Source: a virus. Taken from it: a stretch of 26,311 bases of DNA. The stretch lies in the IMG/VR virus record IMGVR_UViG_3300030430_004274, positions 1-26,311 of that record; one strand, 5' to 3'. Below are positions 1-25,840 of the stretch, piece after piece (position 1 is the stretch's first letter; each line of letters starts with the position of its first letter). A program made the position numbers and the translations under genes. The notes beneath the pieces were generated by a model. The model was given only the letters and a program-made list of their open reading frames with translations, searched no databases and had not been told where the DNA came from.

Positions 1-543
1 GTGGTCGACCGGTCGACCGGACCACGACGGCCACCGCAGCCGCAGGGCGCACTCGCCGGATTCGACGTCGACGAGGCGCCCCGCCACGTACAACGGCACG
101 GTGCAGATCCGATCGGCCTCGTCCGCGTCAGACACGCGCCAAACGCCGCGCGCGTCCACTTGATACCCGTGGGGCGTCGTCCATCCGTCGGGGGCGTACG
201 GGGCGCCCTGGGCGTCGCTACGGCGCACGACGCGCAGCCCTCGGCCCCGGGCCTCCGCCATGCGGGCGAGCGTCCGCACGTCAGCCGAGATCCCACGTAC
301 AGCCCGCAGCCGCGCGACGACGCCGGCCCACTCGCCCGGCGCCTCCCGCGTCAGCCCGCCCAGGTCGTCGAGGGCGGCCTCGTCTGCCAGCGTCGAGGCG
401 ATCACGCTCGCGAGGGCCTCCCGCGTCTCGGCCGCCTGGATCTGCGCGAGGAGCGCCGCGGCACGGGTTCGGCCTGCTGCGAGCAGCACGGCGGGATCGG
501 TTGCCTCGACGCCCACAAGGGCGGCCAGTTCGGCGCTATCCAT
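1..543 (-). CDS. DUF927-type phage primase-helicase, N-terminal part (cut by window edge)
   Basis: The frame opens with ATG at 543 and stays open to base 1, giving 181 residues with no stop, so the gene continues to the left of the window. Residues 1-110 are helical and alanine-rich. From about residue 120 the sequence has the pattern G-Y-x-V-D-x-x-G-V-W, then I-C-x-V-P-L-Y-V, then a V-D-V-E-S-G-E-x-x-L-R-L-R strand. This order is typical of the start of the DUF927 domain, a superfamily of phage and plasmid helicase/primase-like ATPases. The ATPase core with its Walker motifs would lie outside the window. The start follows the primase stop directly (TGA 546-544) and has a GAGGGG-type ribosome site inside the primase gene, so the two are probably co-translated. 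With the primase upstream it would form a split primase plus helicase pair for phage replication. The family call rests on a partial domain only. Confidence 0.7.
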   Translation of the reverse strand, partial: MDSAELAALVGVEATDPAVLLAAGRTRAAALLAQIQAAETREALASVIASTLADEAALDDLGGLTREAPGEWAGVVARLRAVRGISADVRTLARMAEARGRGLRVVRRSDAQGAPYAPDGWTTPHGYQVDARGVWRVSDADEADRICTVPLYVAGRLVDVESGECALRLRWPSWSGRPVDH

Positions 544-22348: not shown

Positions 22349-23097
22349 GGCTCGCCCCCTGCTGCGCGGCGGCGCTTGCGTGCCTTTGGATCTGGCGTGG
22401 CCTCTGCGGGCACCTGTGCGGACTCATGGCGGGCGAGGTCGGCCTCGACAGCGGCCACCTTCTCGTCCCGTGCCTGCCCCGGTGCTGCCGCCTGCGCGCG
22501 TGCTACCCGCTCCCGAGCGCGGCGGATCTGCCGATCCATGATGAGGGGATTGGGCTGGGGCACCAGACCATCGGCCACAAGCGACGCCCGCCATGCGTTC
22601 GCGCGTTCGTGGTCGTATCGGAACACCTGCGACATTCCCGCCGGGGTCGGTACCGGAACCTCCCACAGTTCGGTAAACCGCATGCCGGGCCGGCGCTGCC
22701 GGTCGACGCACGGGATGCCGTAGCAATAGGTCGAGGCGTCGATACCCTCCGGGCGGTAGCGCTCGGCGATCTGCGCGGTGGGATCGAGGTATACGAATCC
22801 TTCGGATTCCTGCTGCTGACGCGCTGCCCGCCATGCAAGCCGCGGATCGCCCTCTTCGGCTCGCGTCAGCGTCCGGATGCCCTGGGCACCGGGCAGCAGC
22901 TCATGCCGCGAGAGCTGCGGAACCCAGACCGCCGCGCCGTCAACCTCCACGACCTCCCACGCGAGCGGATGCGCCCGAAGGAAGAATGCCGCGCGGCTGG
23001 CCGCGGTGATGCGTCCGCCGTCGTCGAATGGTGAGGCAGAGAACGGCGAGGCCGCCGGGCCTGCTGTCGGTGTCGGTGTCTGCGATCGGATCGGCAT
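22345..23097 (-). CDS. Head-region protein of unknown function
   Basis: The protein has 250 residues, with ATG 23097 after GAGGGGAGC. Residues 1-25 are P/T/A-rich and unfolded. The middle (30-165) is mixed, with W-E-V-V-E-V-D-G-A-A-V-W-V-P and R-F-T-E-L-W-E-V-P-V-P. Residues 180-250 are a long charged helix with an A/E/R-rich pattern and a basic end (K-A-R-K-R-R-R-A). It lies between the major capsid and small virion genes, so it may be a head-completion or internal protein. No family is recognised. Confidence 0.68.
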   Translation of the reverse strand: MPIRSQTPTPTAGPAASPFSASPFDDGGRITAASRAAFFLRAHPLAWEVVEVDGAAVWVPQLSRHELLPGAQGIRTLTRAEEGDPRLAWRAARQQQESEGFVYLDPTAQIAERYRPEGIDASTYCYGIPCVDRQRRPGMRFTELWEVPVPTPAGMSQVFRYDHERANAWRASLVADGLVPQPNPLIMDRQIRRARERVARAQAAAPGQARDEKVAAVEADLARHESAQVPAEATPDPKARKRRRAAGGEP

Positions 23098-23197: not shown

Positions 23198-24163
23198 TCA
23201 GGTGGTCGAGATCAGGCGCTGACCGAATGCAACCGATGAATCGGCCTTAGCGACGCCGAAGTATGCGAACGCCTCGGTAGACTGCACCTGCTGCCCGTTC
23301 TGATCCATGCCCTGCTGCACCAGCAGACCGAACTCGGGGACCGTGACGTGGGGCACGGCCGGCGCGATCCGGTCGGGGTTGGCGCTGGCCCACATGAGTG
23401 CGCCCCGGGAGTACATGAATCCCTGGAAGGCGCCGCCCGACGTGGTGATGTCAGAGGTCACGCCAATGTCGATCCCGAGGCCGAGGAAGTTCTGGTACAC
23501 CCGTCCCCGCACGCCCTGGACCTGGGCGAAATCGCTGATCGAGTTCTTGAATGCAGCCTCAGCGCGCAACGAGTTGCGCAGCTGGGACAGCTGCTTTGGG
23601 TGCAGCATGAGCACGGCCTGACCGGGATCTGCGCCGTCGGTCTCGTTGTACGCTGCGACGATGTCCATAAGGTTATCAACACTCAGCGGGGTACCGGCGC
23701 CGCCCACTGCCGTGGCGAACGTGGCGCCGGTCGTGGCGACCTTCGCACGGAACGTCTTGATCCAAGAGTTGGTGATCATGCCGACGAGGCTGTCGAACTG
23801 ATGAACCACCTGCTCGGCCGGCAGGGCGAGCATCCGAGCGAGGTAGGACGACTGGTAGCCGAGGCCATGGGCCGCGATCGTGATCGTGTCGTTGCCGCTG
23901 GTGAACGAGCCAAACGGGACCGCGGTGGTCTCGGTGGCGAGCGTCGTCATGGATGCATCGAACCCGAGGCCGTCGGCGAACGGGACGCGGACGGTATCGG
24001 AACCGCTACCGCCGAGGTCGCCCATGTATGCGACCGCCGAGAGATCCAGCGGGTTCAGGGCATCGGCGAGGCCCATACGGAGGCGCTCGGCGAGAATGAC
24101 GGAGGCGTAGCCGAAATCGGATTCGGTATCAGCGTGACGGAACGGGCTGGCGATGGTGGCCAT
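23198..24163 (-). CDS. Major capsid protein
   Basis: The protein has 321 residues from ATG 24163. A TTG at 24184 in the same frame lies upstream of the GGGAG ribosome site and is rejected. The N-terminus is A-T-I-A-S-P-F-R-H-A-D-T-E, with a helix at 25-45. The middle, with S-Y-L-A-R-M-L-A-L-P-A-E-Q-V-V-H-Q-F-D and A-V-L-M-L-H-P-K-Q-L-S-Q-L-R-N-S-L, and a C-terminal beta part (G-A-L-M-W-A-S-A-N-P) fit the mix of P- and A-domain elements of HK97-like coat proteins. It follows a scaffold-like gene and has its own promoter and leader structure, as expected of the most abundant virion protein. No cleavage site for a protease is evident. Confidence 0.85.
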   Translation of the reverse strand: MATIASPFRHADTESDFGYASVILAERLRMGLADALNPLDLSAVAYMGDLGGSGSDTVRVPFADGLGFDASMTTLATETTAVPFGSFTSGNDTITIAAHGLGYQSSYLARMLALPAEQVVHQFDSLVGMITNSWIKTFRAKVATTGATFATAVGGAGTPLSVDNLMDIVAAYNETDGADPGQAVLMLHPKQLSQLRNSLRAEAAFKNSISDFAQVQGVRGRVYQNFLGLGIDIGVTSDITTSGGAFQGFMYSRGALMWASANPDRIAPAVPHVTVPEFGLLVQQGMDQNGQQVQSTEAFAYFGVAKADSSVAFGQRLISTT

Positions 24164-24167
24164 GGTG

Positions 24168-24230
24168 GGATCTCCCAGGTGCAAGGGTAAAGCGTGATCG
24201 GTGCCTTACTGCCCGTGACGTGGGAGATCC
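24168..24230 (-). promoter_or_regulatory. Stem-loop hiding the ribosome site of the major capsid gene
   Basis: In the transcript, GGATCTCCCA (24230-24221) can pair perfectly with TGGGAGATCC (24177-24168) across a 43-base loop. The second arm contains the GGGAG ribosome site and ends four bases before the ATG at 24163. When paired, the site is closed to ribosomes. Both arms lie inside the leader predicted from the promoter at 24249-24277. Confidence 0.65.
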
Positions 24231-24248
24231 GAGGCCGTGCTCGTTGCG

Positions 24249-24277
24249 AGCGTAGCGGCGCGGGGGGTACGTGTCAA
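24249..24277 (-). promoter_or_regulatory. Promoter for the major capsid gene
   Basis: A perfect TTGACA (24277-24272) and TACGCT (24254-24249) are 17 bases apart on the minus strand. The -10 keeps the key first T, the A and the last T. The -35 overlaps the scaffold stop codon. The start point falls near 24242, giving a leader of about 79 bases. Confidence 0.6.
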
Positions 24278-24906
24278 CGCCCCTCGAACTGCGCGAGGAT
24301 CTCGGCCTGCCTCTCCCGCGGCAGTGACCGATAGGCAGGGCTGCGCACGTATTCCCGCAGGGCCTGCGGCGTCATGCGGCCCGGGTCGCTGGATACGGTG
24401 CCAGCGTTGCCCGTCGGCGCAGGCCGAGGGGCGGGAGCGGGGGCGGATGTCTTCGGCATAGGGGCGGCCTCCCGGCGCAGGTGGTGGCCGAGGGCCGGAT
24501 GCGTAGCGGCGCCCTCGGGATCGGTCAGCCACGACCGGAACGCCTGATCCGGGTCCTCGACCTCGACCTCGGGATCCAGGCTCTTACCGTACGCATACCG
24601 GAACAAATCGACGAGGCCGTCGTCGACGGCGCCCTCGGGGTCGGCAAGGCCGGCGCGCCGGAATGCGTCGAGGTCGTCACGGCGCCGCAGTTCGCCCCGC
24701 AGTTCGTCGAGCGTCTCCGACGCGCCGCGCAGCGTGCCGAGCTGCTGCTCGATCTCCAGCATGCGCGCCCGCGTCTCGTCGAGCTGCGCCGATTTTGCGT
24801 TGATCCGCTTCAGCGCCTCGTCCTTCGGCATGTAGTGCTCGCGGACGTATCCGCTGGTGAATGCGTCGGTGATCTCGCGACCTTCGATCGTTGGGTGTTT
24901 ACTCAT
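24274..24906 (-). CDS. Capsid scaffold protein
   Basis: The protein has 210 residues, with ATG 24906 after GAGGGGAAA. It is acidic and helical: residues 28-80 form a coiled coil (D-E-A-L-K-R-I-N-A-K-S-A-Q-L-D-E-T-R-A-R-M-L). A P/A-rich linker lies at 150-165 (T-S-A-P-A-P-A-P-R-P-A-P). A conserved-looking end follows, M-T-P-Q-A-L-R-E-Y-V-R-S-P-A-Y-R-S-L-P, a short helix-turn-helix tail of the type that binds coat protein. Placed directly upstream of the major capsid gene, this is the classic scaffold arrangement. No serine protease motif is seen, so the scaffold is probably released whole. Function is inferred from composition and position. Confidence 0.78.
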   Translation of the reverse strand: MSKHPTIEGREITDAFTSGYVREHYMPKDEALKRINAKSAQLDETRARMLEIEQQLGTLRGASETLDELRGELRRRDDLDAFRRAGLADPEGAVDDGLVDLFRYAYGKSLDPEVEVEDPDQAFRSWLTDPEGAATHPALGHHLRREAAPMPKTSAPAPAPRPAPTGNAGTVSSDPGRMTPQALREYVRSPAYRSLPRERQAEILAQFEGR

Positions 24907-24921: not shown

Positions 24922-25302
24922 TTATCGTCCGCGCAGGTGGCGGATCAGTGCTCGGTTTCTGGGCTTCCTCGCCCATGCGTCGTACCATGTCCGATCGACT
25001 CGGCGCAGCGTACGCAACGCCCACAATCCGCCGGCATTCCCGCCCCAGGCATGCCACGACACCCAGCCCCGCCCCTTCTGCCGCCATGTCTTCGCCTGCT
25101 TGTCGACGAGGTGACGAGACAGGAAGGACACGATCCGGCGCAGCGTCTCGACGCTGACGGGTTCCCGCGCGGCAAGTTGCGCCATGCGGCGCAGTCCCAC
25201 CGACGTCAGCCCCCGCTGCGATGGTGGGACCGACAGGCGACGACGGCGCGCGCTCTCTGCTGCTCGCGCGACGCTGGCGGGTGGCTTGTATGACTCAGCC
25301 AC
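24922..25302 (-). CDS. Conserved head-region domain protein (W-G-G-N-A-G motif)
   Basis: The protein has 126 residues from GTG 25302, overlapping the upstream stop by 8 bases. The longer frame to 25392 would overlap more. The pattern P-P-S-Q-R-G-L-T-S-V-G-L-R-R-M-A-Q-L-A, then S-V-E-T-L-R-R-I-V-S-F-L-S-R-H, then W-V-S-W-H-A-W-G-G-N-A-G-G-L-W-A, matches a small domain I know from phage head regions, where it is either free or fused to larger head proteins. Its function is not known. A role in prohead assembly is likely from its place between portal and scaffold genes. The protein is strongly basic. Confidence 0.68.
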   Translation of the reverse strand: MAESYKPPASVARAAESARRRRLSVPPSQRGLTSVGLRRMAQLAAREPVSVETLRRIVSFLSRHLVDKQAKTWRQKGRGWVSWHAWGGNAGGLWALRTLRRVDRTWYDAWARKPRNRALIRHLRGR

Positions 25303-25840
25303 GGCGGCGCTTGGTTGATCTGCGATGCCACGACGGCAGCAGATCGTTATCGGTGGTGTACTTCGGATTCCTCGGCTTGCCCGTGCGGACAATGCGCAAA
25401 AAAGCGTTGACGCGGGCCATAGCCCACTGATTCCGCGACGTTACGCGGGGCGAGTGCGACGACGAAAACGCACCCGCACCGCGCCGGTATACGGCCCGCA
25501 GGGTCGAGGTGCGGATCTTGCGTCCTGCCTCGGCGTCGGCGTTGTAGGCGGCCGCCTTCCCGCGCAGCGCCTTCTCGGTGGCCGCCGAGATCGTGATCTT
25601 GCCCGACCCCGTCGCGGCGCTGCCTCTCGGGTTGCGTCTGCTACCCCGTCGGCGCTCCGACCTCGTCGCGGGCGTGTCCGATGCCGGCGCCTTCCTCTGC
25701 GCTGCGCGGCCCTGTAGCAACGCACGATCCCGCGCGCGCTTGCGCGAGGCGGCATTTCCCACCGTGTACCGGTACCGGGTGCCAGATCGGCCCCAACGGT
25801 AGAACGGCCCCCGCTCGTCGGTTCCGCGCATGACAGGCAC
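25295..25840 (-). CDS. Head-region protein, DUF5824-like C-terminal domain
   Basis: The protein has 181 residues from GTG 25840, which overlaps the stop of the small Lys/Pro-rich gene (TAGTG). An upstream ATG at 25972 would read that gene out of frame and add an E-A repeat, so it is rejected. Residues 12-40 (G-P-F-Y-R-W-G-R-S-G-T-R-Y-R-Y-T-V-G-N and on) are a small motif seen in phage head proteins. Residues 100-170 have V-Y-R-R-G-A-G-A-F-S, then Q-W-A-M-A-R-V-N-A-F-L and Y-T-T-D-N-D-L-L-P, which I take as a DUF5824-like domain. It is very basic. Function is unknown. It occupies the place where many phages carry a head protease, yet has no protease motif. Confidence 0.66.
   Translation of the reverse strand: MPVMRGTDERGPFYRWGRSGTRYRYTVGNAASRKRARDRALLQGRAAQRKAPASDTPATRSERRRGSRRNPRGSAATGSGKITISAATEKALRGKAAAYNADAEAGRKIRTSTLRAVYRRGAGAFSSSHSPRVTSRNQWAMARVNAFLRIVRTGKPRNPKYTTDNDLLPSWHRRSTKRRRG

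Follow-up and report, generated by a model that had tools for sequence, protein, structure and literature searches.

In a very isolated phage lineage, the gene that probably encodes the major capsid protein appears to carry its own sigma-70-type promoter and a leader hairpin in which the whole Shine-Dalgarno (SD) sequence is paired. We consider it rather likely, if well short of assured, that translation of this gene is thereby gated in cis, with the closed state as the default. The computed observations behind this proposal are the sequence features themselves, their conservation in a close relative and the same closure of the SD, with unrelated sequence, in a distant one. As judged from these sequences, the phage probably gates how or when its shell protein is made, the hairpin being kept in two relatives.

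The virus and its relatives

The window, that is, the entire stretch of DNA analysed here, comprises 26,311 bases of the record IMGVR_UViG_3300030430_004274 and has 68% G+C. It encodes replication and recombination proteins (a helicase, an Erf-type annealing protein, a RecE-like exonuclease and a resolvase) and, on the minus strand, a head-tail module that includes a tape-measure protein. The lineage is very isolated and belongs to a small family of DNA phages about which little is known: the capsid, terminase and portal of the window had no match among 50,697 phage records, and searches with the capsid, scaffold, portal, terminase and downstream genes in phage records, a viral collection and genomes yielded at most one close relative, L001 (4.9 kb, spanning terminase to capsid), before a distant relative, G001 (38.9 kb), was reached via a short terminase stretch. 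DNA patterns built on the conserved hairpin loop retrieved from the viral collection L001 only, plus five chance matches. A weak DNA match to the coat gene of a Rhodoferax phage was dismissed, as it falls inside that gene and on the opposite strand. The comparative basis is thus three sequences (the window, L001 and G001), two of them close.

The capsid gene

The head genes that concern us here are the following.

23198..24163, minus strand: gene that probably encodes the major capsid protein (321 aa), starting with the ATG at 24163; gene order as in L001 and G001
24274..24906, minus strand: scaffold-like gene, 210 aa, assigned by position and composition only; TGA stop

That the gene at 23198..24163 encodes the major capsid protein is probable on the basis of gene order and of a weak profile match in a relative. 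The order terminase-portal-scaffold-capsid is seen in both L001 and G001, and the protein at the capsid position of G001, which is 33% identical to the window capsid protein (E 1.4e-42), weakly matches PHROG 267 'major head protein' (E 0.073). The window capsid protein itself gave no sequence-family match in the test for an HK97-fold major capsid, and its AlphaFold models have pLDDT of 33 and 32. The scaffold-like protein is 88-91% identical to its counterpart in L001, with no family match in profile searches. Between portal and scaffold, at 25298-25834 (minus strand), lies a gene whose protein matches DUF5824 at its C-terminus, barely above the cut-off.

The capsid start codons of the window and G001 align (MAT). 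An in-frame TTG in the context CCCTTGC precedes the capsid ATG by exactly 21 bases both in the window (24184, minus strand) and in G001 (L011:1468); this TTG is absent from L001 and was not adopted as the capsid start.

A putative promoter between scaffold and capsid

The original prediction gave the capsid gene its own promoter, with a perfect TTGACA box and a 17-base spacer, overlapping the scaffold stop. The elements are located as follows.

24272..24277, minus strand: TTGACA, the -35 hexamer, inside which the scaffold-like gene ends with its TGA; kept in L001
24249..24254, minus strand: -10 hexamer TACGCT (TANNNT), 17-base spacer from the -35; kept in L001
about 24242, minus strand: predicted transcription start (position inferred)
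24239..24251, minus strand: short inverted repeat, GCTCG-CAA-CGAGC, that overlaps the -10 and the predicted start; possible operator or 5' hairpin

The box, the spacer and the overlap with the stop are all confirmed, the two hexamers lying at 24277-24272 and 24254-24249. The -35 hexamer agrees with TTGACA in 6/6 positions; TACGCT agrees with TATAAT in 3/6 and fits TANNNT, and it is because of this 3/6 that a strict consensus promoter scan of the window does not list the candidate. The pattern TTGACA-16..18-TANNNT occurs once, against 0.027 expected per window; no other TTGACA exists on the late strand, and the only forward TTGACA of L001 is at the equivalent place. Between the window and L001 the 17-base spacer has diverged, with both hexamers identical. 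In G001, reverse-strand ORFs lie between scaffold and capsid, so that a separate capsid promoter is very probable there, the longer of these ORFs being tentative because its codon bias is weak. The rarity of the pattern, the retention of both hexamers and the intervening ORFs of G001 all support the presence of a putative sigma-70-type promoter proper to the capsid gene.

The small repeat GCTCG-NNN-CGAGC occurs once per record and keeps its arms in L001, where the loop is changed to ACA. The reverse-strand ORFs of G001 lie at L011:661-1238 (minus strand); one region of them matches a NikA-like ribbon-helix-helix family (E 1.2e-10), and a repeated GTAGCTAC motif is found nearby, at L011 1258-1278.

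A leader hairpin over the ribosome site

The predicted leader contains the following elements.

24221..24230, minus strand: 5' arm of the hairpin, GGATCTCCCA, as seen from the inverted repeat, the fold and the L001 alignment
24182..24215, minus strand: upper part of the hairpin, with CGGG/CTTG and GTAAGGC/GCTTTAC stems, a CA bulge that is conserved and a loop that varies in part
24168..24177, minus strand: 3' arm TGGGAGATCC, which contains the SD
24172..24176, minus strand: Shine-Dalgarno GGGAG, its GGAG 8 bases before the ATG

The two arms form an inverted repeat that is exact over 10 bases, with 43 bases in between (24230-24221 and 24177-24168), and GGGAG is in the 3' arm, as predicted. Folding of 24242-24150, the check proposed with that prediction, gives -37.2 kcal/mol (z -4.0), which no shuffle equals; taken by themselves, the inner 43 bases of the hairpin show no unusual stability (z about -1.2). 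Perfect repeats of at least 10 bases with loops up to 60 number two in the window against a shuffle mean of 4.2. Hence, a 10-base repeat as such is within chance expectation, and what is remarkable is its placement over the SD. The perfect SD-covering stem at the capsid start is the longest among 32 starts of the window (p = 0.001, upstream-sequence shuffles), followed by one of 9 bp (p 0.003) at the gene after the capsid, the start lists behind this ranking and the cost rankings below being partly predicted in this analysis. The SD is predicted to be fully paired (unpaired probability 0) for all transcript starts tried, from 24330 to 24235. Rfam covariance models gave no match at the gathering score in the window or L001, the sub-threshold match being on the other strand (E 0.61).

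For the gene that begins at 23097, the leader (23188-23105, minus strand) holds two interleaved 9-base perfect inverted repeats, 23188-23180/23139-23131 and 23160-23152/23113-23105, the second of which covers the SD. A pseudoknot could form there; the nested fold favours the upstream stem, and the SD then remains roughly half accessible.

The degree of closure can be expressed as an opening cost, the free energy needed to open the SD in its -75..+12 context. In each of the three records, the SD of the capsid gene takes the most energy to open, with 17.2, 20.7 and 10.1 kcal/mol in the window, L001 and G001, respectively (ranks 1/21, 1/4 and 1 of 9-10; shuffle p 0.017 for the cost in G001), and these ranks are independent of any leader alignment. 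The capsid starts of lambda, T7, TM4, phiC31, HK97 and T4 cost 0.6-6.0 kcal/mol and never rank first. The costs vary with the length of the context, and the three capsid starts stay high whenever the 5' arm is included; upon its removal, about 5 of the roughly 17 kcal/mol remain.

The hairpin in the two relatives

Both arms are kept in L001, where a C to G change extends the outer stem from 10 to 12 bp, an SD-covering length matched in 0/1000 shuffles, and where the leader fold has z -4.96. Over the 63-base hairpin, L001 differs from the window by seven changes: six fall in unpaired consensus columns, and the seventh, U-to-C, keeps the pair with G. Among random sets of seven changes, 0.8% reach the stability of L001, and the outer 10 bp survive in 12%. 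A noncoding block, 24235-24202, has 34 identical bases in L001, as compared with an identity of about 67-70% at the third positions of the scaffold and capsid codons; this run is only suggestive because the coding parts hold similar ones (38 and 32).

The capsid leader of G001 is unrelated in sequence. Its SD, AGGAGAG, is contained in a 15-pair hairpin, GUGCUCU-acca-CCU-ac-GCGCC-cuugc-GGCGC-AGG-AGAGCAC (z -2.58); the long leader as a whole folds about as stably as its shuffles (z -0.40), and the local hairpin persists in it. Closure of the capsid SD by a leader stem, as originally proposed, is therefore supported in the window, L001 and G001. The prediction was to be abandoned if the arms diverged in relatives without compensation, which was not seen: the arms of L001 are identical save for the change that lengthens the stem, and G001 keeps the closure with unrelated sequence, strict compensatory pairs being uncountable in three sequences.

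What the hairpin might do

The next question is how such a leader could function. In the cell, the leader of the capsid mRNA would fold so as to pair the whole SD, with the consequence that ribosomes could not load efficiently unless the hairpin were opened or cut; the hairpin would thereby lower capsid translation. Some factor would then open or further close it and so determine when capsid is made, or how much of it, in relation to scaffold. This factor would most likely be a phage or host RNA-binding protein acting on the conserved unpaired CGUCA and CA, or else cleavage of the RNase III type. Given that hundreds of copies of the capsid are needed, a closed SD is a paradox unless something opens it. 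No such opener was found; the candidates that remain are a protein on the unpaired bases, RNase III-type cleavage and a transcription start between the arms. Opening by coupling to the scaffold ribosome was rejected as unlikely because of the distance (43 bases separate the scaffold stop from the 5' arm) and of the intervening ORFs in G001. The sequences speak neither for nor against the translational repression by a virion protein that the original prediction entertained. It is conceivable, though rather improbable, that the hairpin serves as a conserved RNA switch, bound by an assembly protein that would link capsid translation to head assembly in a feedback like those of RNA-phage coat or ribosomal proteins.

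Several other functions can be envisaged. Transcripts starting upstream might be closed and a late promoter, or processing, between the arms might supply short, open mRNAs devoid of the 5' arm. Such a temporal gate has an exact precedent in T4 e and I-TevI, with ribosome-site hairpins also on soc (PMC3014915, PMC2988022), and would fit both the drop in opening cost upon loss of the 5' arm and the unusual conservation of the loop, in which TACCCT (24189-24184), a possible -10, is kept in L001. However, TACCCT has no fitting -35, the good TTGACA promoter precedes both arms and the hairpin of G001 lacks a TANNNT, so we take this arrangement to be fairly improbable, if worth keeping in mind. It is less credible still that the hairpin merely stabilises the 5' end of the mRNA, translation proceeding anyway via a standby site or helicase activity. 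Abundant capsid is needed, and the separate promoter would put the hairpin near the 5' end of an abundant transcript; yet a stabiliser does not require the SD to be inside the hairpin, G001 shares the closure with unrelated sequence, and the capsid SDs of the six model phages are accessible.

Nor does it appear at all likely that the repeat acts at the DNA level, as a pair of sites, close to the promoter, to which a protein binds, or is due to chance. Its frequency, no rarer than in shuffles, and the ribbon-helix-helix-like coding that adjoins the capsid gene of G001 would be compatible with this notion, but the arm has no second copy within one mismatch in the window, the nested inner stem is kept in L001, and G001 retains the closure with different letters and a different spacing. 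An RNA thermometer would likewise hide the SD in a hairpin; in the model, however, the SD of the window and of L001 remains closed up to 75 C and that of G001 is about 89% paired, so that the temperature response entertained in the original prediction is strongly disfavoured and can be given hardly any weight.

Comparison with known systems

The claim that accompanied the prediction, namely, that no standard example of such control exists in this kind of DNA phage, was too strong in view of the SD-hiding RNA hairpins on the late genes e, soc and I-TevI of T4 (PMC3014915, PMC2988022) and of the T7 capsid promoter. The likeness to T4 (e, soc, 49, I-TevI) is considerable: in a DNA phage, the SD of a late gene is concealed by a stable helix, the late gene encoding a capsid protein in the case of soc, and the pairing of the SD in a stable helix that characterises this type of sequestration is predicted for the window (opening cost 17.2). 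The differences are that the late promoter of e and I-TevI yields mRNAs without the 5' arm, whereas the recognisable promoter of the window precedes both arms, and that the gene of the window is the probable major capsid gene within a head operon. T7 offers the same succession of scaffold (gene 9), a separate promoter (phi10) and capsid (gene 10); phi10, however, is a promoter of the phage RNA polymerase, and the capsid SD of T7 is accessible, with an opening cost of 3.0.

The SAS/ESAS elements of cluster K mycobacteriophages, a 13-base GGGATAGGAGCCC motif with separate 17-base repeats, accompany many genes, in the non-structural half only (PMC3203893). They resemble the leader described here in placing inverted repeats right upstream of translation starts, but the sequence at the capsid start of the window is different, its arm is unrepeated, and the capsid SD of TM4, at a cost of 0.6, is open. 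More remote parallels can be drawn with systems in which proteins of the virion or of its assembly regulate expression. The R17/MS2 coat operator is a weak hairpin at a ribosome site that is stabilised by the coat protein and controls the replicase; the window likewise has a hairpin at a ribosome site in the context of a virion protein, but its predicted stem is strong without protein and is located on the capsid gene. The P22 scaffolding protein exerts post-transcriptional autocontrol, which likewise ties the expression of a head gene to assembly in a DNA phage but acts on the scaffold.

Taken together, SD-hiding hairpins on late genes (T4) and a promoter between scaffold and capsid (T7) are already known. 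The open-licence papers searched describe no such leader hairpin on the major capsid gene of a DNA phage; relative to them, the new element is a predicted hairpin that closes the probable major capsid gene itself and is kept across 33% protein identity. The capsid-to-scaffold ratio decides whether heads assemble properly, and in tailed phages it is usually ascribed to promoters, gene order and the strength of ribosome-binding sites. With a lineage that would close the SD of what is probably its most-needed protein, and would do so despite sequence turnover, translational control of head assembly would become directly testable.
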